Origin: Planctomycetota bacterium
Lineage (GTDB): Bacteria; Planctomycetota; B15-G4; JADJEK01
NCBI GenBank assembly: GCA_016213895.1
Contig: JACQZJ010000078.1
Span: 51,689 to 90,260 of the forward strand
Length of the DNA: 38,572 bases
Reading direction: 5' to 3'
Part shown: positions 27,473 to 38,572 of the stretch, in pieces
Position numbering within the stretch: position 1 is the stretch's first letter
Layout: each line of letters starts with the position of its first letter
Translations under genes and position numbers: made by a program
The notes under the pieces: model-generated
What the model was told of the DNA's origin: nothing
Seen by the model: only the letters and a program-made list of their open reading frames with translations
The model's database searches: none

Positions 27473-28540
27473 TCAGTCCGGGAAGAGCATGCCCTGGGCC
27501 GGTCCCGGCCGGCGGAAGTGCGCAGAGGACAGCTCGATTCCGCCGTCCTCGCGGAATCCGGCCTTGTGGCGCGCGAGCAGGAAGAGCGACTCGATCTCGT
27601 TGGCGAAGACGCCCTCGCCGCGCATCCTGTGGCCGAAGCGCGCGTCGGTCAGGCGGCCGCCGCGCATGTCGCGGATGCGGTGGAGCACCTTGGTCCTGCG
27701 CTCGGGCAGGTGCTCCTCGAGCCAGCGCTCGAACAGGTCCGCCACGCCGAACGGCAGGCGCACCACCTGGTAGCCGGCGGAGCGCGCGCCCGCCTTCCGC
27801 GCCGCGGCGAGGAGGTCCGGCAGCTCGTGGTCGTTCAGGCCCGGGATCACGGGCGCGGCCATGACCGAGACCGGCACTCCCGCGCCCGCGAGCGCCGCGA
27901 TCGCCTCGATGCGCTTCTCCGGCCGGGCCGCGCGCGGCTCGAGGATCCCGGCGAGCGCGGCGTCGAGCGTGGTGATCGAGAGCGCGACGCGCGCCGCGCC
28001 GATGGCCGCGAGCCCGGCGAGCAGGTCGAGGTCGCGCGTCACCACCGCGCCTTTCGTGCACACCTCCACCGGGTTCCGGAACTCGGCCAGCACCTCGAGG
28101 CAGCGGCGCGTCAGCCCGAGCGTTCTCTCGATCGGCTGATAGCAGTCCGTGACGCCGCTCAGGTTGACCGGCTCGGGCCGCCAGCTCTCCTTCATCAATT
28201 CGCGGCGCAGGAGCTCGGGCGCGTCCTCCTTCACCATGATCTTCGACTCGAAGTCGAGCCCGGCGGAGAAGCCGAGGTACTCGTGGTACGGCCGCGCATA
28301 GCAGTAGATGCAGCCGTGCTCGCAGCCGCGGTAGGGGTTGACGCTCACCGTGTAGGGCAGGTCCGGGCTGTCGTTCCAGCTCAGGATGGAACGCGAGGCG
28401 TCGCGGAAGAAGCGCGTGCGCGGGAGCGGCGCCTCCTCGTCAAGCACGTCCTGATCAGGGACGAACTCGATCTCGTCGAAGCGGCATTTCGGGTTCTCGC
28501 CCGTGCCGCGGCCGTGGATCGCACGCTCGCCTCGCTTCAT
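27473..28540 (-). CDS. PA0069-type radical SAM protein (SPL-like, COG1533), SOS-controlled
   Basis: 355 aa. The ATG at 28540 has AGAGGAGG 7 nt upstream. The open frame extends further, but the extra part is shadow. The radical SAM motif CxxxCxxC is in 'GCEHGCIYCYARPYHEYLG', with 'NPYRGCEHG' as in the PA0069 family and its relative spore photoproduct lyase. Further family motifs are 'GVTDCYQPIERTLGLTRRCL', 'VCTKGAVVTRDLDLL', 'APVIPGLND' and 'GYQVVRLPFGV'. The C-terminus has 'DARFGHRMRGEGVFANEI'. A LexA-type direct repeat (28579-28593) overlaps its likely promoter. Spore photoproduct lyase reverses UV thymine dimers. A DNA-repair role here is inference from regulation and family kinship. Confidence 0.88.
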   Translation of the reverse strand: MKRGERAIHGRGTGENPKCRFDEIEFVPDQDVLDEEAPLPRTRFFRDASRSILSWNDSPDLPYTVSVNPYRGCEHGCIYCYARPYHEYLGFSAGLDFESKIMVKEDAPELLRRELMKESWRPEPVNLSGVTDCYQPIERTLGLTRRCLEVLAEFRNPVEVCTKGAVVTRDLDLLAGLAAIGAARVALSITTLDAALAGILEPRAARPEKRIEAIAALAGAGVPVSVMAAPVIPGLNDHELPDLLAAARKAGARSAGYQVVRLPFGVADLFERWLEEHLPERRTKVLHRIRDMRGGRLTDARFGHRMRGEGVFANEIESLFLLARHKAGFREDGGIELSSAHFRRPGPAQGMLFPD

Positions 28541-28568: not shown

Positions 28569-28593
28569 ATCCTAGTGCGTTCGTGTTTCGTTC
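28569..28593 (-). promoter_or_regulatory. LexA-type box GTTC-N7-GTTC with -10, radical SAM gene
   Basis: On the plus strand GTTCGTGTTTCGTTC spans 28579-28593. Read toward the gene it is GAAC-N7-GAAC, followed after 4 nt by TAGGAT (28574-28569), a plausible -10, 28 nt before the ATG. The same direct repeat precedes lexA and imuA. The divergent ECF sigma gene starts 107 nt on the other side and might also be affected. Confidence 0.75.
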
Positions 28594-28699
28594 GCAAAGG
28601 AGTGTGGACTTCTCGCCAATGCGCCGCCCGCGCGCCGCCTGGCATGGCGCGGCTGAGGCGCGTACGCTTGGGGACGTCCTTCCCGGCGCGAGATGATCG

Positions 28700-29296
28700 A
28701 TGCCCGACATTCCGCAGGACACCGTCGCTGTCCTCGCCGCCGCCTCGGCTGGCGATCCGGCCGCGAGGAACCGGCTGTTCGAGATCGTGTATCGCGAGCT
28801 GCATTCCCTGGCCCACCGCGCCATGCGGGGAGAGTCGCCGCGGAACATCCTCCAAACCACGGCCCTCGTCCACGAAACGTACCTCCGCCTCGTCCCGGGA
28901 GACGACGCGCGCTGGGAGGGCCGCGAGCACTTCTTCCGCGCCGCGGCGCGCGCCATGCGCGGCATACTCGTCGACGAGGCGCGCGCGCGGCGCGCGACCA
29001 AACGCGGCCAAGGGAGGGCGCATCTCTCCCTCGAGGCGTGCTGCGAGCCGCCTGACGCGTCCGGCCGCCTCGCCGTCGACGACCTGGAGGAGCTGGACCG
29101 GGCCCTGGAGAAGCTAAGAGGAGAGGCCGGCGATGACCGCATGGCCACGGTCGTGGAGCTGATGTTCTTCGCCGGCCTGACCCAGGAGCAGGCCGCGGAG
29201 GTCCTGGGGGTCTCGAAGGGCACCGTGCGCCGGGACTGGGAGTTCGCCAAGGCCTGGCTGCGGCGCGAGATGACCGGCGGCGGTGCAAACGGTTGA
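28700..29296 (+). CDS. ECF sigma factor of the PF07638 (Sigma70_ECF) type
   Basis: 198 aa, ATG at 28700 with only a weak ribosome site. The sequence 'LQTTALVHETYLRL' (residues 51-64) and 'FFRAAARAMRGILVDEARAR' (78-97) are signatures of this subgroup, followed by region 4 ('VVELMFFAGLTQEQAAEVLG', 'VSKGTVRRDWEFAKAWLRRE'). These factors are abundant in Planctomycetota and Acidobacteriota and are commonly found with Ser/Thr kinases, which fits the kinase about 1.4 kb away. No anti-sigma gene is adjacent, so kinase-based control is likely but unproven. It converges with the beta-helix gene across a strong hairpin. Confidence 0.9.
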   Translation: MPDIPQDTVAVLAAASAGDPAARNRLFEIVYRELHSLAHRAMRGESPRNILQTTALVHETYLRLVPGDDARWEGREHFFRAAARAMRGILVDEARARRATKRGQGRAHLSLEACCEPPDASGRLAVDDLEELDRALEKLRGEAGDDRMATVVELMFFAGLTQEQAAEVLGVSKGTVRRDWEFAKAWLRREMTGGGANG

Positions 29297-29332
29297 CCCG
29301 CCGTTCGCGCTCCGCTTGCGCCAACGGCGGGT
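29296..29332. terminator. Convergent-gene hairpin, likely bidirectional terminator
   Basis: ACCCGCCGTT (29296-29305) and AACGGCGGGT (29323-29332) form a perfect 10-bp stem. The 17-nt loop can form an inner GCGC/GCGC stem. It starts at the last base of the ECF stop codon and lies 22 nt from the beta-helix stop. No T-tract. Confidence 0.55.
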
Positions 29333-29354
29333 CCGCCGGTGCGTGAAGGACGTG

Positions 29355-30596
29355 TCACTCCAAGATCATCGAGTACACGTTCGTCAACCGGTCGCCGACC
29401 AGCGCCTGCAGGACGATCCGGTACGGGCCGGGAGTGGGTGGAAGCGTCATGGGGAGCGAGAACAGCCCCTGCGCGTTGACGGGTCCCAGGAGAACGGACT
29501 GCTGGACCGGCGGCGCGATGTGCCAGTACCCGTACGTCGTGGGGACGGGGTACGGGTACGTGTCGAGGCCGACGAACAGCTGGAACCAGCTGCGAGGAGT
29601 CGCCGTCACCTTGACCTGGACCACGCCGCCTGGAACGGTGTCGCCGATCACGTACAGGTGGCGGTAGAACTGGTCGGCGCCCACGTCCACGATGCCCACG
29701 CCGCTGCGCGGGTCGTCCTCGAAGTCGTGGAGCGGCATGCCCACCGCGTACGTGTTGCCGTGGTACCGGCACGGCGAGTTGTTGGCGATGTGCAAGTCCC
29801 CGTTCGGCCGGTCCACGAACACTGGATCGTAGGTGAAGTTACCGACGCCGCCGCCGGCCCAGACCGACACGCAGCAGTAGTTGACGTCGGCGTTGCTGGA
29901 CGTGTCCTCGTAGATGTCGGCCCAGCCCTGGTTCTGGTAGACGATGGTGTTGGTGATCGCCGGGAAGGAGTTGGACAGACAGTCGATCGCGCCGTGCAGG
30001 GTGGTCTTGTTGTCGGTGATGGTGTTGTTCACGATGTTCGGCGAGGACTCGGCGCAGTAGATGGCGCTGCCGCCGTAGTAGGTCTTGTTCCTGGTGATGA
30101 CGTTGTTGGCGATCAGGGGGCACGACTTGTCGACCATGTGGATCCCCGGCGCACGAGTCGCGGTGTGCGACTGGCTCTTGGTGATAAGGTTGCTCAGGAT
30201 CGTGGGCGACGCGTGCTTGATGTAAATGCAGCTCTTGGAGTAGGAGACGCTGCTCTTGGTGATGGTGAACCCTTCCAGCACCGAGTGGTCGTCGTTCAGG
30301 AACGTGACGATGTCCGCGCTCTGTCCCTTGGTCAGAATGGTCTCGGCGGGCGCGAGGTCGTGGGTCCAGTAGTAGCCGTCCACGTCGCTCCGCACCGTGA
30401 TCGCCCGGTGGTCGAAGACGATATCATTCGCGGGCTCCGTGTAGGTCCCGGGCCGCACCAGGATCACGTCGCCGTCCGCGGCCGTGTCGATCGCGTTCTG
30501 CAGCGTCAGAAACTGGTCGGGGTAGATCCAGTAGGCCTGCGAGAAGGCGGCCGCCTGGAACGCCAGCAGCAGGAAGAGCGCAATCAGGATCCTCAT
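29355..30596 (-). CDS. Exported right-handed beta-helix repeat protein
   Basis: 413 aa with a signal peptide (residues 1-20, 'RILIALFLLLAFQAAAFSQA'). The start of the helix is 'TLQNAIDTAADGDVILVRPG', then short Asn/Ile-rich rungs typical of parallel beta-helices ('PTILSNLITKSQSH', 'CPLIANNVITRNKTYYGGSA', 'SPNIVNNTITDNKTTLHGAI'), followed by 'VDVGADQFY', a common exit motif. The last 100 residues form a beta-rich domain ('PGGVVQVKVTATPRSWFQLF', 'GPYRIVLQALVGDRL'). Probably extracellular, binding or cleaving a polysaccharide, but no catalytic residues were identified. Codon use looks less GC-extreme than its neighbours. It follows the kinase gene by 84 nt on the same strand. Confidence 0.8.
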   Translation of the reverse strand: MRILIALFLLLAFQAAAFSQAYWIYPDQFLTLQNAIDTAADGDVILVRPGTYTEPANDIVFDHRAITVRSDVDGYYWTHDLAPAETILTKGQSADIVTFLNDDHSVLEGFTITKSSVSYSKSCIYIKHASPTILSNLITKSQSHTATRAPGIHMVDKSCPLIANNVITRNKTYYGGSAIYCAESSPNIVNNTITDNKTTLHGAIDCLSNSFPAITNTIVYQNQGWADIYEDTSSNADVNYCCVSVWAGGGVGNFTYDPVFVDRPNGDLHIANNSPCRYHGNTYAVGMPLHDFEDDPRSGVGIVDVGADQFYRHLYVIGDTVPGGVVQVKVTATPRSWFQLFVGLDTYPYPVPTTYGYWHIAPPVQQSVLLGPVNAQGLFSLPMTLPPTPGPYRIVLQALVGDRLTNVYSMILE

Positions 30597-30615
30597 GGCT
30601 GTCCTCCGTGTACGA

Positions 30616-30637
30616 GGTCCCGCGCCATTGCGGGACC
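30616..30637 (-). terminator. Hairpin between kinase and beta-helix genes
   Basis: GGTCCCGC and GCGGGACC form a perfect 8-bp stem around a 6-nt loop. It lies 43 nt after the kinase stop and 19 nt before the beta-helix ATG (with GGAGG between), so it may be an attenuator or leader structure rather than a simple terminator. No T-tract. Confidence 0.45.
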
Positions 30638-30680
30638 GGGTGCTTTCCGAAAGCCAAGGCGGAGAACCGCGATCCCGGTG

Positions 30681-33257
30681 CTAACGGATTCCGACTTTTC
30701 CCGTGGCGAGATCGGCTGCCGGGCGCACGCCGAAGGAGTCGAACCGTCCACTCCCGTCGTTCGTGAACCGAGCCGCGGACCGGCAAAGCGAGGTGTTGCA
30801 GTCCCAGGAGCCTCCCCGGAAGGCCCGGAGGACCGAGTCCTCCGAGTCCCACGCGGAACCGTCGTTCGGGGCTCCCTCGTAGGAGTTCTTATCCGTGGAG
30901 TCCTGACACCATTCGGAGAGGTTGCCCTGCATGTCGTGCAAGCCGAACGGGTTCTGACGAAAGGACCCGACCGGCGCGTGGGTGACGTAGCCGTCGTCCA
31001 GCCAGTCCTCGAATCCCCAGTCCAGGACCCCGCCGAACCTCATCAGGAACTGGTCGGCGAGGTTCGCCGCTCCCGCGAGGCTCTCCTTCTCGTCGCCGCT
31101 CCACCACACCGTGGAAGTGCCCGCGCGGACCGCGTACTCCCACTCCGCCTCGGTGGGAAGGCGGAGCCCCAGGTTGCCGAGAACCTGCGCCGCCTCGTTC
31201 CAGGTCACCTGCTCGACGGGATGCAGCGGGGTCACCTTCTTGCCGCCGTACTCGTCGCCCGGCCGGTACGCGCTCGGGTTGCTGCCGGTGAAGCGCAGCC
31301 ACTGGCCCTGGGTCATCTCATACTTGGAAAGCAGGAAGGGGCGAACGGTCACGGCATGGACCGGTCCCTCGATGGGGCGCGCCTGCGGATCGACGTTCGG
31401 GGAGCCCGCGGGCTCGGCCTCGCTGGGCGGCCTGCCGCCCATGTCGAACGCTCCTCCCGGCAGCAGGACGAACACCAATCCGGTCTCCTCGGTGATGAGG
31501 AGCTTCCCGTCAGGTCCCCTCTCGGGCACGGCGCCCGTCTGGATGTGGGCGAACTCCCAGAGGCCCGAGCCCGGGTCCGGGCCGAGGGGAACCAGGCCGA
31601 GCTGGGGAGCGAGCCCGAGACCGTCGTAGCGCGGGCAGGCGCCGCGGTCGGCGATCGAGGCGATGGCGGCGTCCCAGCGCGCCGCCTGCTGCACGATGCT
31701 CCGGTCGTGCACCGTCTTCGCGAAGGCCAGGCGCTCCTCGACCCGCCGCAGCGTGCCCGACTCGGCGCTGGACAGGGCCAGCAGGCCCTTCACCAGCTCG
31801 CTCAGCACCTCGTGGCGCCACTCGCTCTCGGCGCTTCGAAACGCCGGCGCGCCGTCCGCGGCCAGGGGGGCCGAGGCGCGCAGGGCGGCCAGGTTCTGCT
31901 GGTGGACCTCCAGCCGCACGAGCAGGAAGCGCGCCCGGTCGATCCAGTCCTCTATCCGCGGGACCATCTCCGGCGCCGCGGGCCAGAGCCGCTGCGCCTC
32001 GGCCTCGAGGTCGGAAAGCAGCTTGACGTCGGACAGGCGGCGGATCTCCTCGTAGCGGGCCTGCGCGCGCGGATAGGACCAGAGGACGACGTAGCCGAGG
32101 AAGCCAAGGAGGGGCAGGACCGCGGCGACGACGGCCGTCGCCACGACCGGCCTGCGCCGGATCCGGCGCCAGGAGCGGGTCAAAACGCCGGCGGGCCGCG
32201 CCAGGATCGGCTCGCCGCGGGCCACGCGGCCCAGGTCCTCGGCGAAGAGCGCCGCGGTCTGGTAGCGCCGCGAGGGCTCCTTCTCCATGGCGGTGAGGAT
32301 GACGGTCTCGAGGTCGCGGGTCACGGACGGGTTGAGGCGCCGCGGCGCCACGGGCTCCTCCTCCAGGATCTGGCGGAAGACCTGCTCCGTGGTCTCGCCC
32401 TCGAAGGGAACGCGCCCGCACACCGCCTGGTAGAGGGTGACGCCGAGCGAGTACACGTCAGTGCGCGCGTCGATGGCGTGCTTCGTGCCGCGGAGCTGTT
32501 CCGGCGCGGCGTAGTGCGGAGTGCCGCGGAACTCGCCGGAGAGCGTCATGAAGGCGAGGTTCTGGTGACGCGCCACGCCGAAGTCCATGACCTTGGCTCG
32601 CCGCCCGTCCTCCACGCGGATGTTCGACGGCTTGACGTCCCGATGCACCACGCCCGCGGAGTGCGCCACGTGCAGGGCGCTGGCCACGTCGCCGGCCCAG
32701 CCGAGCAGCGCGGTCAAGGGGACCTTGTCGCCGCCGCCGGCGGCCACGCGCAGGATCTGGTCCAGGTCCTGGCCGGGCACCAGCTCCATGGCGAAGTAGC
32801 ACACGCCGCCTTGTTCGCCGCCGCTGTACACGGTCACGATGTTCGGGTGGCGCAGCCGCGAGACCACCTCCATCTCGCGCCAGAAGCGCGCGCGCGCCTC
32901 GGGAGACCCGGCCAGCTCCGGCCGGATGATCTTCAAGGCCACCTCGCGACCGATGGGCTCCTGGCGGGCGAGGTAGACCGCGCCCATGCCGCCGGCGCCG
33001 ATGCGGCGGAGCAGCCGGTACTCTCCGAGCCGCTCGAACGGCAGGCCCGGCTCCGCCTGCGCCGCGCCGGGGAATTCGGCCGGCCGCGCGAAGAAGGCGC
33101 TCGCCTCTGCGCCGGCTCCGAGCAGCGCCTCCACCTGCTCGAGGAGAGCGGGCTCATCGCGGCAAGCCTCGGCGAGGAACGCCTTGCGGCCCGCCTCGTC
33201 CCGCTCGAGGGCCGCGAGGTACAGGTCCTTCAGTCTCTCCTGACGTTCCTGCGTCAT
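30681..33257 (-). CDS. Transmembrane Ser/Thr protein kinase with C-terminal FGE-sulfatase domain
   Basis: 858 aa from the ATG at 33257, preceded by GGCGGAGG. The N-terminal 1-75 segment is helical ('RKAFLAEACRDEPALLEQVE'). The kinase domain spans about 78-345 with all active residues: glycine loop 'IGAGGMGAVYLA', K109 in 'VALKI', H205-R206-D207 in 'VVHRDVKPSN', D225-F-G and 'YAAPEQL'. One membrane helix (about 370-393) leads to a coiled region and then, from about residue 597, a formylglycine-generating-enzyme-like sensor domain ('VFVLLPGGAFDMGG', 'LRLPTEAEWEYAVRAGTST', 'FGLHDMQGNLSEWCQDS', 'FRGGSWDCNTSLCRSAARF'). A receptor kinase with an external domain is implied. The ECF factor nearby is a candidate partner. 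Confidence 0.93.
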   Translation of the reverse strand: MTQERQERLKDLYLAALERDEAGRKAFLAEACRDEPALLEQVEALLGAGAEASAFFARPAEFPGAAQAEPGLPFERLGEYRLLRRIGAGGMGAVYLARQEPIGREVALKIIRPELAGSPEARARFWREMEVVSRLRHPNIVTVYSGGEQGGVCYFAMELVPGQDLDQILRVAAGGGDKVPLTALLGWAGDVASALHVAHSAGVVHRDVKPSNIRVEDGRRAKVMDFGVARHQNLAFMTLSGEFRGTPHYAAPEQLRGTKHAIDARTDVYSLGVTLYQAVCGRVPFEGETTEQVFRQILEEEPVAPRRLNPSVTRDLETVILTAMEKEPSRRYQTAALFAEDLGRVARGEPILARPAGVLTRSWRRIRRRPVVATAVVAAVLPLLGFLGYVVLWSYPRAQARYEEIRRLSDVKLLSDLEAEAQRLWPAAPEMVPRIEDWIDRARFLLVRLEVHQQNLAALRASAPLAADGAPAFRSAESEWRHEVLSELVKGLLALSSAESGTLRRVEERLAFAKTVHDRSIVQQAARWDAAIASIADRGACPRYDGLGLAPQLGLVPLGPDPGSGLWEFAHIQTGAVPERGPDGKLLITEETGLVFVLLPGGAFDMGGRPPSEAEPAGSPNVDPQARPIEGPVHAVTVRPFLLSKYEMTQGQWLRFTGSNPSAYRPGDEYGGKKVTPLHPVEQVTWNEAAQVLGNLGLRLPTEAEWEYAVRAGTSTVWWSGDEKESLAGAANLADQFLMRFGGVLDWGFEDWLDDGYVTHAPVGSFRQNPFGLHDMQGNLSEWCQDSTDKNSYEGAPNDGSAWDSEDSVLRAFRGGSWDCNTSLCRSAARFTNDGSGRFDSFGVRPAADLATGKVGIR

Positions 33258-33570
33258 GGTCCGCCTCCGCCAAGTCCACTGGAGGACACGATACTGGCCG
33301 GACCTGGCGAGCCACCAGGCGAGGCGTTCGAATCCGAGGTCGCCGGCAGAGAAGGCGTGGCGCAGGTTCGGGGCTTCGACCTTCTGTGTGGGCAGCTGAT
33401 CGAGCTTGTTGCGGCGTTCCTCCAACGCCAGAGGCTGCAGGCTCCCGATTTCGACGCGTCCTCCTTGGGGGCTCAGGGAAACCGCGCTCCGCCCGCGCTT
33501 TCGGGGGCACGGCCGCGCGTCCCTTCACCGCGGGGCTGCGCTCGCCGGTTGTCCGAGCGACGCAGTTCGC

Positions 33571-33602
33571 GCGCCCGCCCCTTCGAAGTGGAGGGCGGGC
33601 GC
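33571..33602. repeat. Orphan hairpin, perfect 10-bp stem
   Basis: GCGCCCGCCC (33571-33580) pairs with GGGCGGGCGC (33593-33602) around a 12-nt loop containing TTCGAA. It is more than 300 nt from either flanking gene start. Confidence 0.55.
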
Positions 33603-33925
33603 TCCAGGACCGATGTGCTTGAGGAGGGCCGGGGAGTCTCCCAGCCTATGCGGCGTTACCCACACGCAAGGTTGAAGCCGCACTATCGATCCGCGCTACC
33701 GACACGAGGACGGGCACGACCGCTGCCCTTCCTGGCGCTGCTCCTGACGGCCTGGCGCGCGCGCGACCGCGCGACGCATTGCGCTCGTCGCCCTGGCCTT
33801 CACTCTGCGCCACGCCCTGGCCGCCATTCGCATCGACGCGGCGGCCGAGCACCCGTCCTACTCCGTGCTCAGCAGCGCAGATGCTGCGAAGGTGCAGGAG
33901 AGCACCGATTCCGCGATTCACTGTT

Positions 33926-33952
33926 GTTCGCTTTTCGTTCGGCGGCTATTCT
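33926..33952 (+). promoter_or_regulatory. LexA-type box GTTC-N7-GTTC and -10 upstream of lexA
   Basis: GTTCGCTTTTCGTTC (33926-33940) is followed by TATTCT (33947-33952), a likely -10, 34 nt before the ATG. Its position implies autorepression of lexA. Confidence 0.8.
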
Positions 33953-33986
33953 CGTCTCGCGTGAAGTCGTTGCAGAAGGGACCGCC

Positions 33987-34628
33987 ATGACCCTGCCGAT
34001 CTCGCGCCGACAAATGGGGCTTCTGAACGCCTTCCGGGCCTTCGTGCGCACGCACGGCCGCACGCCGAGCGTGCGCGAACTCGGGGCCCTCCTCGGCCGC
34101 TCGGCCTCGACCGTCCACCAGACGCTCTCCGCCCTGGCCAGGAAGAAGCTGCTGGTGAACGGGGGAGGAGCCCACGGCTGGCGGCTCGGCGAAACAGCCC
34201 TGGATCAGGCCGCGCAACAGGCCGCGGCTCTCGAGCCGCTGACCGAGATGCTGCGCGTTCCCATCCGCGGCGCCATCGCCGCCGGCCGTCCCATCGAGGC
34301 GATCGACGATCCGCAGGACGCGCTCCTCCTTCCCCGCGATCAGGTGCGGGAGGGCACGTATGCGCTCCGCGTCCAGGGCGACAGCATGCGCGAGGACCAC
34401 ATCCTCGACGGCGACATCGTGCTCGTGGAGCCGCAGCCCAAGGTCGAGGACGGCGAGATCGCCGTGGCCCTGCTCGAGGACGGCACGGCCACGCTGAAGC
34501 GCGTCTATCGCGATGCGCGGCGCCGCAAGATCCGCCTGCAGCCGGCCAACGGCGCGATGAAGGCGCTCCTCGTCGACCAGGTCGAGATCCAGGGCAAGGC
34601 CGTCGGCATCTACCGCAAGCTCGGTTGA
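33987..34628 (+). CDS. lexA: LexA, SOS-response repressor
   Basis: 213 aa, ATG at 33987 after AGAAGGGA. The N-terminal winged helix-turn-helix reads 'RTPSVRELGALLGRSASTVH'. The autocleavage machinery is complete: the scissile A99-G100 bond in 'GAIAAGRP', the nucleophile S133 in 'VQGDSMRED' and the general base K171 in 'TATLKRVY'. On RecA-filament activation it cleaves itself and releases SOS genes. The direct-repeat operator just upstream and the same site before imuA and the radical SAM gene define its probable local targets. A much longer open frame passes through this gene from 29283, but it is shadow upstream of this ATG. Confidence 0.95.
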   Translation: MTLPISRRQMGLLNAFRAFVRTHGRTPSVRELGALLGRSASTVHQTLSALARKKLLVNGGGAHGWRLGETALDQAAQQAAALEPLTEMLRVPIRGAIAAGRPIEAIDDPQDALLLPRDQVREGTYALRVQGDSMREDHILDGDIVLVEPQPKVEDGEIAVALLEDGTATLKRVYRDARRRKIRLQPANGAMKALLVDQVEIQGKAVGIYRKLG

Positions 34629-34631
34629 GGC

Positions 34632-34650
34632 GCCTCGCCCCTGCCGAGGC
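34632..34650 (+). terminator. Small hairpin just after lexA
   Basis: GCCTCG and CGAGGC pair around a 7-nt loop starting 3 nt past the lexA stop. No T-tract follows immediately. Confidence 0.35.
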
Positions 34651-34750
34651 CCGAGCCCCTGGTCCTTCTCCGTAAGGCTCTTTCATCCTCAACTCTCTGC
34701 CGGTTTACCGGCGCACCCTTGACCGCGAGCATCGAGGCGAACCGCGCGCT

Positions 34751-34800
34751 GAGCGGAGCGGCGTTTCCCTGGTGGAGGGTGCGGCCGCGACGGCATCCCG
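34751..34800 (+). repeat. Dispersed intergenic repeat, copy B
   Basis: Begins GAGCGGAGCGGCGTTTCCCT and continues to CGGCCGCGACGGC. The first 22 nt match copy F (reverse complement) with a single-base indel. Confidence 0.55.
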
Positions 34801-34868
34801 CCCCACATCACGTATGTTGGAACGTCCAGGATGGCGTCCTCTCGGCCTGAGCTCGGCTGAAGCCGCGA

Positions 34869-34910
34869 GGCGGAGCAGCGTTTCTCCGGGAGAGGACGCG
34901 GCCGCGACGA
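34869..34910 (+). repeat. Dispersed intergenic repeat, copy C
   Basis: GGCGGAGCAGCGTTTCTCCG then GCGGCCGCGACGACG parallels copy B about 118 nt away in the same orientation. It is more diverged and lacks the 3' half. Confidence 0.45.
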
Positions 34911-34975
34911 CGTTCCACTCTCACCTCCCGTGCCTTCACCACACCGAACCGCCGGCATCGCCGTGCGCCTCGACG

Positions 34976-35062
34976 AGCCGCTGCTCGTTCGTCGCGCACT
35001 CGATGCACCGGGAGTCGCGCTGCCGCGTCCGGCCCCGGAGAAACGGCTGCGACGCCGCTCCG
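34976..35062 (-). repeat. Dispersed intergenic repeat, copy D
   Basis: Reverse-complement copy of A. The 39 nt at 34981-35019 differ from A at two positions, and AAACGGCTGCGA (35041-35052) matches A's other half. Confidence 0.7.
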
Positions 35063-35106
35063 CACCACGCCACGACATCGGTCTAGGCTACGGCCGCTGC
35101 AACGCG

Positions 35107-35200
35107 CCGCTCCTCCTTCCTCGCGCACGGCCTGCACCGCAAGTCGCGCATCCAAGTCGCGCATCCGTCCCCGAATCCAGGGAAACGGCCGCTCCGCTCC
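35107..35200 (-). repeat. Dispersed intergenic repeat, copy F
   Basis: On the minus strand it begins GGAGCGGAGCGGCCGTTTCC and later has CGGATGCGCGACTT, GCGGTGCA and GTGCGCGA in the same order as copy A. It contains an internal 13-bp tandem duplication. Confidence 0.5.
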
Positions 35201-35223
35201 TCCCACATTTTTCTCTTCCCATT

Positions 35224-35245
35224 GTTCGTATTTTGTTCGTATACT
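35224..35245 (+). promoter_or_regulatory. LexA-type box GTTC-N7-GTTC and -10 upstream of imuA
   Basis: GTTCGTATTTTGTTC (35224-35238) is followed by TATACT (35240-35245), 11 nt before the imuA ATG. The operator sits directly against the -10, so bound LexA should block the imuA-imuB-dnaE2 transcript. Confidence 0.8.
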
Positions 35246-35255
35246 CTCATCTGCC

Positions 35256-35894
35256 ATGACTACCCTCTCCACTGACATCCCCTCCCTCGACTCCCTCCTT
35301 CCTGACCACGGCCTGCCCCGCGGCAGCCTGATCCAGCTCTCCGGTACCCCCTCCTGCGGCAAGACCGCCCTCGCCTTCGCCCTGATCGCCGCGGCCCAGC
35401 GCCGCAACGAAGACGCCGCCTTCATCGATCCGCGCCGCGCCTTCTTCGCGCCCGCGGCGCAGGCCGCGGGCATCGACCTCGACCGCCTGCTCCTGGTGCG
35501 CCCGCCGCCTCCTCTTGACGCGCGCGACGCCACGGCCGGCCTGCGCGTCCTCGATCACCTGCTGCGCAGCAAGGGCTTCCCGCTGATCGTCCTCGACCTG
35601 TCCGGCGAGTGCCTCGCGCCGCCCCTCCACCGCCTGTTCCGCGTGGGGCGTCTGGCCAAGGTGAGCGAGACGATCGCCCTGCTCATCACCGAGTCCGCGC
35701 CCGGCGAGCCCTCCCTCGGCTCCGCCATCGCGCTGCGCCTGGCCGTGGCGCGCAGCGGCTTCTCCTTCGTGCCGCGCGCGCAGACGCCCTTCTCGCTCGG
35801 CGGCTCGCGCGTGACCGTCGAAATCAGGAAGAGCAAGTTCGGACCGCCCGGCGGCCGCGCCGACCTCGATCTCCTTCCAGGCAGGACGAGTTGA
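35256..35894 (+). CDS. imuA: ImuA, RecA-like SOS mutagenesis protein
   Basis: 212 aa, ATG at 35256. It is a RecA-fold protein with 'GLPRGSLIQLSG' and an apparently complete Walker A 'GTPSCGKT' (residues 30-37), 'DLDRLLLVRP', and a Walker-B-like hydrophobic strand 'FPLIVLDLSGE'. The C-terminal 'VEIRKSKFGPPGGRADLDL' resembles the RecA/ImuA end. It is the first gene of the SOS cassette imuA-imuB-dnaE2 that performs error-prone translesion synthesis. Whether this version hydrolyses ATP is unknown. The imuB start is 22 nt downstream. Confidence 0.85.
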   Translation: MTTLSTDIPSLDSLLPDHGLPRGSLIQLSGTPSCGKTALAFALIAAAQRRNEDAAFIDPRRAFFAPAAQAAGIDLDRLLLVRPPPPLDARDATAGLRVLDHLLRSKGFPLIVLDLSGECLAPPLHRLFRVGRLAKVSETIALLITESAPGEPSLGSAIALRLAVARSGFSFVPRAQTPFSLGGSRVTVEIRKSKFGPPGGRADLDLLPGRTS

Positions 35895-35916: not shown

Positions 35917-37440
35917 GTGCGCGAACCGGCCGGTCTGCCCGGCGAAGCCTTCCCCGCGCGGCGCACGGCCTGCGCGTTCGTGCCGGGCTTTTGCGCCGCG
36001 GCGCACGCACGCGCCGACCCCGCGCTCGCGGGCGCGGCGTTCGCCGTGGCCGGACGGCTGGAGAAGCGCGACCTGGTCTCGGCCGCCTCGCCGCAGGCGC
36101 TCGCCGCCGGGGTGAAGATCGGCATGACCGCGGCGCAGGCGCTCGCGGCCTGCTCCGCGCTCTGCCTCCTGCCCGAACAGTCGGATCTCGAGGAGCAAGC
36201 GCTCGCCGAGCTGACCGAGGCCCTGAGGAGCGTGTCTCCGGCCGTGGAAGCGGCCGGGAACGGCCTGTTCCACCTCGATCCGCGCGGCCTGTCGCGGGTG
36301 CACGGCGACGAAGCAACGATCCTCGAGCGCATGGTCGCGGTCGTGTCGCGCCTTGGCTTCCCGGACGCGCGCGCCGCCGTGGCCGACACGCGCTTCGCCG
36401 CCTGCGCCGCGGCCGCCTGCGCCGAGTCGCCCACCACGCTGGTCCCGCCGGGAGAGACGCGCGCCTTCCTCGCGCCGCTGCCCCTCGACCTCCTGCCCCT
36501 CTCGCAAGAGAACCTCGAACGCCTGCGCGCCCTGGGCCTCAAGACCCTGGGAGAGTTCGCCGCCCTGCCCGCGGCCTCGGTCGAGGTGCGCTACGGCCTC
36601 GAGGGCGTCCGCGCCCACCGCCTGGCGCGCGGCCTGGACAGCGAGCCGCTGGCGCGCACGCCGGAGATCGAGGAGATCGCGGAGACCTTCGAGCTGGAGG
36701 TTCGCATCGACGGACTGCAGCAGCTCGCCCCGATCCTCGAGACTCTTCTCGACCGCGTGCTCCCTCGCCTCGACGGCCGCGGCGCCCTCGGAGTCGAGGC
36801 CGCGTTCCTCCTCGACGACGGCAAGACCGTCGAGGTGCTCGCCGAGCCGGCCGCGCCCTGCGCCGACCAGAAGACGCTCCTCACGCTCCTCTCCCTCGAG
36901 ATCGAACGTACCGCCTTCTCCGCGCCGGTGGTCGAGGCGACCGTGCGCGTGCTGGCCGCGGCGCCGCGCGTTGCCGAGCAGGGCAGCCTCTTCGCGCGCC
37001 GTTGCGTCGATCCGGGGCGCGTGCAGCGCGTGCTGGCGCGCCTGCGCTCGCTCTGCGGCGCAAACGCGCTCCTGCACCCGAGCGTTCGCGCCGCGCACCG
37101 GCCCGAGGCGCGCACGGCGCCGTCCGCGACTCCCGGCCGTGGAGCAGCAGAGCCCGACCCGCAGCCCGCGCTCCCCCTCTCTCCCGCCCTGCGCCTGCTC
37201 GATCCGCCCGCGCCCGCCCGCGTGCGCCTGCGCCAGGGCCGCATCCTCTCCTTCGCGCTTTCCGGCCAGCCGCCGCTCCTGGTGCGCCTGCGCTTCGGCC
37301 CCTGCTGCCTCTCCGGCGAATGGTGGGAGCGGCCCTTCGCGCGCGACTACTTCGCGGTCGTCACCGCTGGCCACGGCTGGTACTGGCTGTATCGCGACCG
37401 CGCCACCGGCTCCTGGTACGTGCACGGGGTGTTCGACTGA
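35917..37440 (+). CDS. imuB: ImuB, catalytically inactive Y-family polymerase homologue
   Basis: 507 aa from GTG 35917, with AAGGAGG directly upstream. An ATG at 35913 is in another frame. The Y-family layout is recognisable ('RRTACAFVPGFCAAAHARAD', 'GVKIGMTAAQALAACSAL', 'FAACAAAACAES', 'LRALGLKTLGEFAALPAASV'), but the metal-binding acidic residues expected near the N-terminus and in the SxDE motif are replaced ('AAGNGLFHLDPRGL'), as in other ImuB proteins. Two possible beta-clamp-binding peptides are QGSLF (355-359) and QPALPLS (416-422). ImuB acts as the hub linking ImuA, DnaE2 and the clamp. Its TGA overlaps the dnaE2 start (TGATG). Confidence 0.92.
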   Translation: MREPAGLPGEAFPARRTACAFVPGFCAAAHARADPALAGAAFAVAGRLEKRDLVSAASPQALAAGVKIGMTAAQALAACSALCLLPEQSDLEEQALAELTEALRSVSPAVEAAGNGLFHLDPRGLSRVHGDEATILERMVAVVSRLGFPDARAAVADTRFAACAAAACAESPTTLVPPGETRAFLAPLPLDLLPLSQENLERLRALGLKTLGEFAALPAASVEVRYGLEGVRAHRLARGLDSEPLARTPEIEEIAETFELEVRIDGLQQLAPILETLLDRVLPRLDGRGALGVEAAFLLDDGKTVEVLAEPAAPCADQKTLLTLLSLEIERTAFSAPVVEATVRVLAAAPRVAEQGSLFARRCVDPGRVQRVLARLRSLCGANALLHPSVRAAHRPEARTAPSATPGRGAAEPDPQPALPLSPALRLLDPPAPARVRLRQGRILSFALSGQPPLLVRLRFGPCCLSGEWWERPFARDYFAVVTAGHGWYWLYRDRATGSWYVHGVFD

Positions 37441-38572
37441 TGGCCGCGGACGCGACGCCTCCCTACGCCGAGCTGCACTGCCACTCGAACTTCTCCTTCC
37501 TCGAGGGCGCCTCGCACGTCGAGGAGCTGGTCGCGCGGGCGAAAGAGCTCGGCTATTGCGCCCTGGCCCTCACCGACCGGGACGGCGCGTACGGCGCGCC
37601 CGCCTTCCACCAGGCCGCGGCCGAGGCCGGCCTGAAGCCGCTTCTCGGCGCCGAGGTGACGCTCGCCTCGGGCCACCACGTCACGCTGCTCGTCAAGGAC
37701 GCCCGCGGCTGGTCGAACCTGACGCGCCTCTTGACGCGCGGGCGCATGCGCGAGGAGAAGGGCCGCTCGACGGTCACCTTCGAGGAAGCGGCCGCCTGCG
37801 CGCCCGGGCTCATCGCGCTCTCCGGCTGTCGCCGCGGGGAAGTGCCCGCGCTCCTCCTCGGCGACGACGCAGAGGGAGCCGCGGCCGCAGCCGCGCGCTG
37901 GCGGGACGCCTTCGGCCAGGACGGCTTCTACCTCGAGCTTGAGGACCACCTGCTCGAGGAGGACGAGCGCTTGAACGCGCGCCTCGAGTGGCTCGGCCGC
38001 GCGCTCGGCGTGCCGCGCGTGGCCACGGGCAACGCCCACTTCGCCGCGCCCGCCGGCCGGCGCCTGCAGGACGTGCTCACCGCCGTGCGCCACCGCACCG
38101 ACCTGGACCGCGCCGGCACGCTTCTCTTCCCCAACGGCGAGCGCTTCCTCAAACCAATCGCGGACGTCGCGCGCCGCTTCCGCCGCTTCCCCGGCGCGGT
38201 GCGAAGAAGCGCGGCCGTCGCCGAGCAGTGCGCCTTCTCGCTCGGCGAGCTGTCCTACCGCTTCCCCGCCTTCGCCGTGCCGGCAGGAGAGACGCCCTTC
38301 TCCTACCTGCATCGCCTGGTGCACGAGGGGGCGCGGCAGCGCTACCGGCCGCTCACTCCCAAGGCCGCCATGCAGATCGCCCGCGAGTTGGACGTCATCT
38401 GCCGCCTCGACCTGGCCGGCTACTTCCTCATCGTCTGGGACATCGTGCGCTTCGCCCGCGAACAAGGAGTCCTCTGCCAGGGGCGCGGCTCGGCGGCCAA
38501 CTCCGCGGTCTGTTATTGCCTGGGGATCACCGCCGTCGACCCGGTGCGCATGGGCCTGTTGTTCGCGCGTTT
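37440..38572 (+). CDS. dnaE2: DnaE2, error-prone DNA polymerase III alpha-type subunit (3' end outside window)
   Basis: Open from ATG 37440, overlapping the imuB stop, to the window edge: 377 codons visible of roughly 1000-1100 expected. It begins with the PHP domain ('YAELHCHSNFSFLEGASHVE', 'ALALTDRDGAYGAPAFHQAA', 'ATGNAHFAAPAGRRLQDVLT') and continues into the polymerase palm region ('DLAGYFLIVWDIVRFAREQG', 'CQGRGSAANSAVCYCLGIT'). It is the catalytic polymerase of the ImuABC translesion system and is probably SOS-induced from the imuA promoter. Confidence 0.95.
   Translation, partial: MAADATPPYAELHCHSNFSFLEGASHVEELVARAKELGYCALALTDRDGAYGAPAFHQAAAEAGLKPLLGAEVTLASGHHVTLLVKDARGWSNLTRLLTRGRMREEKGRSTVTFEEAAACAPGLIALSGCRRGEVPALLLGDDAEGAAAAAARWRDAFGQDGFYLELEDHLLEEDERLNARLEWLGRALGVPRVATGNAHFAAPAGRRLQDVLTAVRHRTDLDRAGTLLFPNGERFLKPIADVARRFRRFPGAVRRSAAVAEQCAFSLGELSYRFPAFAVPAGETPFSYLHRLVHEGARQRYRPLTPKAAMQIARELDVICRLDLAGYFLIVWDIVRFAREQGVLCQGRGSAANSAVCYCLGITAVDPVRMGLLFAR

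Follow-up and report, generated by a model that had tools for sequence, protein, structure and literature searches.

The window, i.e., the whole stretch of 38,572 bases that was analysed, contains exactly three copies of the direct repeat GTTC-N7-GTTC, at 28579-28593, 33926-33940 and 35224-35238, all of which are written on the + strand. These copies, treated here as predicted LexA operators, lie among the following features:

27473..28540, - strand: PA0069-type radical SAM gene (SplB-like), NCBIfam NF033668, 446.5 bits against a cut-off of 360
28569..28597, - strand: promoter-like TTGCGA-17-TAGGAT overlapping operator 1, with TAGGAT at 28574-28569; read by eye, unscored in the consensus scan
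28579..28594, + strand: predicted operator 1, GTTCGTGTTTCGTTCG, which reads CGAACGAAACACGAAC towards the radical SAM gene
28700..29296, + strand: ECF sigma factor gene, divergent neighbour (TIGR02999, 192.8 bits), probably not the target of operator 1
33924..33952, + strand: promoter-like TTGTTC-17-TATTCT overlapping operator 2, with TATTCT at 33947-33952; read by eye
33926..33941, + strand: predicted operator 2, GTTCGCTTTTCGTTCG, a site found at all seven LexA-b genes
33987..34628, + strand: lexA-b, TIGR00498, 137.3 bits against a cut-off of 110.95, with Pfam domains and aligned with E. coli LexA
35224..35239, + strand: predicted operator 3, GTTCGTATTTTGTTCG, abutting the -10-like TATACT (35240-35245); the identical 16-mer stands ahead of imuA in the related genome G001
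35256..35894, + strand: imuA (RecA-like), Pfam RecA 58.3 bits; NF033429 ImuA 49.6 bits, below the cut-off of 150
35917..37440, + strand: imuB (Y-family polymerase-like), Pfam IMS 55.7 bits, with orthologues in relatives
37440..38572, + strand: start of dnaE2, translation AELHCHSNFSFLEGASH..., identified by eye; its frame overlaps the imuB stop and is cut by the end of the window and contig

The cassette behind operator 3 thus runs in the order imuA, imuB and the start of dnaE2, with an ImuA below the NCBIfam cut-off and a dnaE2 that is partial at the contig end. The LexA-b protein combines a winged-helix DNA-binding domain with an S24 peptidase domain, above the curated cut-off (Pfam, TIGR00498), and its alignment with E. 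coli LexA leaves the Ala-Gly cleavage site and the catalytic Ser and Lys intact, as is also the case in LexA-a, the product of a second lexA gene on another contig; both genes have a predicted operator at their own promoter. A third LexA-like match in the genome (L107, G000:C39:23329-23532) consists of the DNA-binding domain only. Between the radical SAM/ECF pair and lexA-b, a Ser/Thr kinase fused to an FGE-sulfatase domain is encoded on the - strand (window 30681-33425).

The positions of the three sites, as given in an earlier note on this DNA, were confirmed, and the sites share a longer motif, given that all of them extend into GTTCG and have a T-rich spacer, which yields the fuller form GTTCG-NN-TTT-Y-GTTCG. 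The bare 8-base core GTTC-N7-GTTC is in slight excess in the window (shuffle mean 0.67; three or more in 4 of 100 shuffles), while GTTCGNNTTTNGTTCG has three matches in the window and none in 100 shuffles. One orientation had to be corrected: seen from the radical SAM gene, whose ATG is at 28540 on the - strand, operator 1 reads GAACGAAACACGAAC, i.e., it is oriented opposite to the other two. The plausible -10 that the earlier note had placed beside each site was also found, as TAGGAT, TATTCT and TATACT, respectively; only the imuA promoter passed the consensus promoter scan, and the other two were identified by eye. An operator that overlaps or abuts the promoter hexamers is the classic layout for repression by the blocking of RNA polymerase. 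At imuA, TATACT ends 10 bases before the ATG (window 35240-35256), and the transcript may be leaderless or near-leaderless. The ECF sigma gene was also considered as the target of operator 1 and was set aside, given that the conserved partner of this site is the radical SAM gene and that the related genome G003 has lexA-b in the place of the ECF gene.

In the genome of 5,503,723 bases, GTTCGYNTTTYGTTCG has three perfect matches, all inside the window, and the sole single-mismatch match to the fuller motif is GTTCGCCTTCCGTTCG, at C136:17215 on another contig, approximately 165 bases upstream of the start of lexA-a (matched at C136:17386-17976). The bare GTTC-N7-GTTC, with 103 matches, was rejected as a genome-wide test for being too unspecific. 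These counts come from pattern searches, and matrix scoring was limited to the listed matches and the loci fetched from this genome. With a matrix derived from 11 sites of the family, the four operators reached 26.6-32.7 bits and the next best of the fetched loci 19.3 bits, a gap which expresses likeness and not proof of function, given that the matrix was built partly from the same four sites; this runner-up and the others examined are inside long open frames. In this draft of 218 contigs, which is 95.5% complete and could be missing additional operators, four predicted operators are clear of the background, at lexA-b, imuA-imuB-dnaE2, the PA0069-type radical SAM gene and lexA-a. The earlier view of a local regulon was nearly right, as three of the sites are in the window, but the fourth is at the second lexA on another contig. 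A genome scan, one of the checks named in the earlier note, placed the fuller motif at these promoters only, and no site was found at recA here, although the sister family has one; the outcome that the note had named as counter-evidence thus holds in part.

A frame of 26 codons, MKRNILGRDGAAALAMTIILALLLFL, is located between the fourth operator and lexA-a (L106, 8279-8359, own contig C136), and the copies in this genome and in G001 differ, by eye, in one residue and several silent changes. Small frames of 24-41 codons, each encoding a single hydrophobic stretch and provided with a ribosome-binding-like site, stand directly ahead of the planctomycete-type lexA at 10 of 113 promoters, where 0.05 are expected, and a similar small frame is present at 1 of 183 control genes. 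The other loci with a small frame upstream of lexA are L102, L079, L082, L101, L113, L181, L186, L192 and L193.

The assignment of SOS operators to lexA, imuA and the radical SAM gene is supported by related genomes, in which each of the sites is conserved (G000 is the genome under study and G001 is from the same genus). In G001, lexA-a, lexA-b and imuA each have a T-rich GTTCG-N6-GTTCG site, and a fourth lies in the interval that separates the radical SAM gene from the ECF gene. In G002, a site is present at each of lexA-b, imuA and the radical SAM gene, and in G003 a single site is common to the divergent lexA-b and radical SAM genes. In G009, which belongs to another family, GTTCGTATTTTGTTA is present near the radical SAM gene with one mismatch (by eye). 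The direct repeat, with a spacing of exactly 7 bp, marks every one of the seven LexA-b promoters found in two families of the order, against 0.075 expected. The repeat could in principle be a feature of chance or of promoter composition, without any LexA binding, as the bare core is common, with its 103 genome matches, but this explanation is scarcely credible, given that the fuller motif occurs at no other promoters of the genome and stays with the same genes across genera.

The behaviour of recA, one of the genes at which the earlier note would have counted a lack of motif enrichment against its reading, divides by family. No operator site was found at recA in G000 and G001, and a degenerate GTTCGTAGAACGTTAG is present at recA in G003, whereas all four of the sister-family genomes checked have one: GTTC-N7-GTTC precedes recA in G005, G007 and G009, and in G011 a recA-like frame is preceded by a 16-mer and flank identical to those of G007. 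A looser pattern, GTTC-N5-TCGTTCG, also has many matches in that family beyond recA and lexA-b, with downstream genes that could not be tied to SOS. The operator is thus a property of the order, and the genes under it changed between families; in G000 and G001, the regulon lacks a usual core gene.

The earlier note had judged that the window does not look alphaproteobacterial, which agrees with the lineage of the host. Among named relatives, the closest is a metagenome assembly recorded as Phycisphaera mikurensis (Planctomycetota), whose LexA is 90% identical. A search for FtsZ/tubulin (PF00091) had no match in six genomes (G000 and five relatives), against matches in 13 of 14 controls. The absence of FtsZ is expected for Planctomycetota. 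A planctomycete-like assignment is supported by the name of the nearest relative and the missing FtsZ. As a planctomycete marker, PF07587 was uninformative, with no match in any control, and L037 (Phycocomes) had been wrongly taken as a planctomycete, being alphaproteobacterial.

The GTTC-N7-GTTC operator is that of the alphaproteobacterial LexA, as described for Caulobacter crescentus (PMC9578287 Table 1), and the sites described here resemble it in the half-site GTTC, the direct repeat, the 7-bp spacing and the place at lexA promoters, but differ in the flanks and the spacer. The eight alphaproteobacterial lexA sites examined are of the form GTTCTA-N4-(T/C)GTTC, with T after the first GTTC, whereas those of the order are mostly GTTCG-N2-TTT-(C/T)-GTTCG, with a T-rich spacer and mostly G in that position, except at recA, where it is T. 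The recognition-helix regions also differ between LexA-b and the alphaproteobacterial proteins (ASTVHQTL against SKSGIHRLI).

Phylogenetically, LexA-b forms a single clade of seven, with a support of 100, in two families of the order. A sister relationship of LexA-b and LexA-a was rejected (AU p = 0.0085, careful tree), LexA-a being placed elsewhere, and in a quick tree LexA-b was placed with LexAs from other phyla, within a large group that includes those of Alphaproteobacteria, E. coli and B. subtilis, the latter two represented by reference sequences. In this quick tree, the alphaproteobacterial proteins are a separate clade with a long branch; a clade of these with LexA-b is absent from the free tree, but was not rejected when forced in the careful tree (AU p = 0.245). 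The phylogeny, which the earlier note had named as a check, hence separates LexA-b from LexA-a and neither supports nor rejects its joining with the Alphaproteobacteria.

Given these data, an alphaproteobacterial descent of LexA-b, which would have entered the order with its GTTC-N7-GTTC operator, can be weighed. The common half-site and spacing, the forced clade that was not rejected and the position of LexA-b away from LexA-a and among other phyla are all compatible with such a descent, and there is a precedent in Acidobacterium capsulatum, whose LexA and GTTC-N7-GTTC operator are reported as acquired from Alphaproteobacteria, according to a citing statement in PMC7739468. This descent is nevertheless improbable, in view of the separate alphaproteobacterial clade, the unlike sites and recognition-helix regions, and the presence of LexA-b in two families, so that any transfer would be old. 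The repeat also occurs at ordinary planctomycete lexA promoters: of 95 further lexA promoters from the phylum, seven have the direct repeat at 7 bp, against 0.77 expected, which is the top value among spacings 0-15, although the enrichment is moderate, as spacings 8 and 11 reach five each. These sites, one of which is GTTCGCCTTTTGTTC, are at lexA genes of other than the LexA-b type in families f37, f45, f4, f21 and f59. Because some ordinary planctomycete lexA promoters bear the repeat, a lineage that shares the operator type fits better than a recent acquisition. Of the two options in the earlier note, the sharing half is well supported, by the seven LexA-b promoters, the recA of the sister family and these ordinary promoters, while acquisition from Alphaproteobacteria gains little from sites that differ and a tree that neither joins nor splits the two groups decisively.

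Taken together, the four sites very probably define a small SOS regulon that serves mutagenic translesion synthesis and has two LexA repressors and a single operator type. In undamaged cells, a LexA dimer would sit on the direct repeat GTTCG-N6-GTTCG, over the core promoter, and block RNA polymerase; following DNA damage, RecA filaments would trigger the self-cleavage of LexA at the Ala-Gly bond, which would release lexA-b, the imuA-imuB-dnaE2 cassette for mutagenic translesion synthesis, the PA0069/SplB-like radical SAM gene and lexA-a, the last together with the gene of a 26-residue membrane peptide ahead of it. The sites, their rarity and conservation and the intact catalytic residues of LexA are observed; binding, repression and damage induction are inferred, the damage-induced release from the LexA family itself.

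The protein most likely to bind is LexA-b, since each of its seven orthologues comes with the site, and LexA-a may share the sites. The reverse arrangement would have LexA-a, the ordinary LexA of planctomycetes, as the principal binder of the four sites, or both proteins as binders, with LexA-b as a second repressor feeding the same regulon. It would account for the site at the promoter of lexA-a in G000 and G001 and for the repeat at lexA genes that are of other types and come from several further families (the seven of 95 promoters, against 0.77 expected). This arrangement is rather unlikely, given that the draft genomes G002 and G003 yielded LexA-b only, with the sites still present, and that the repeat is missing from most promoters of the LexA-a type.

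Within the order, the LexA that adjoins the mutagenesis genes differs between lineages. In G007 and G011, imuB adjoins an E. coli-type LexA. The lexA of this type has CTGT-N8-ACAG upstream in G011 (L080) and G005 (L085), and a weaker CTGT-N8-ACAC in G007 (L083). In G009, imuA and imuB are beside a third LexA type, with CCAGAC-N4-GTCTGG upstream; this perfect palindrome precedes the third type both at L120 (G009), 7068, and at L122 (G016), 6435. LexA-b is also present in G005, G007 and G009, and its presence with an E. coli-type LexA in G005 and G007 means that a single genome can hold several types of LexA and of operator.

Cassettes of imuA-imuB-dnaE2 linked to lexA are known in Pseudomonas putida and Xanthomonas. 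These bacteria also provide the precedent of two LexA regulons (PMC9578287), and the present case is similar in having a lexA gene beside the mutagenesis cassette and a second LexA elsewhere. On the other hand, their two LexAs have different operators, whereas here one operator is found at both lexA promoters, and within this order the cassette-linked LexA varies (LexA-b here, the E. coli type in G007 and G011, and the CCAGAC-N4-GTCTGG type in G009). The operator of Bacillus subtilis, CGAAC-N4-GTTCG (PMC9578287 Table 1), has the half-site GTTCG in common with the present one, but is an inverted and not a direct repeat. In the open literature on LexA in Planctomycetes/Planctomycetota, no described LexA operator was found for the phylum; one paper states that the E. 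coli motif is not the one used by its LexA, and says no more. The regulon is one of a known kind, in a lineage for which no operator description was found in that literature.

A broader reading is advanced tentatively, as a serious possibility that falls short of probable: the Planctomycetota may have a direct-repeat operator of their own, independent of the Alphaproteobacteria, which two unrelated LexAs share in a small mutagenesis regulon that lacks recA in this genus, and the lineages of one order may have swapped the LexA of the cassette among at least three LexA and operator types. If the regulon proposed above is right, the phylum would gain a testable SOS operator, and there would be an extra case for the question of how many times LexA evolved the reading of direct repeats. 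Related genomes in which the LexA beside a mutagenesis cassette changes type would also become available as a set. Finally, the finding points to a putative membrane peptide linked to lexA, and made with it, in bacteria without FtsZ.
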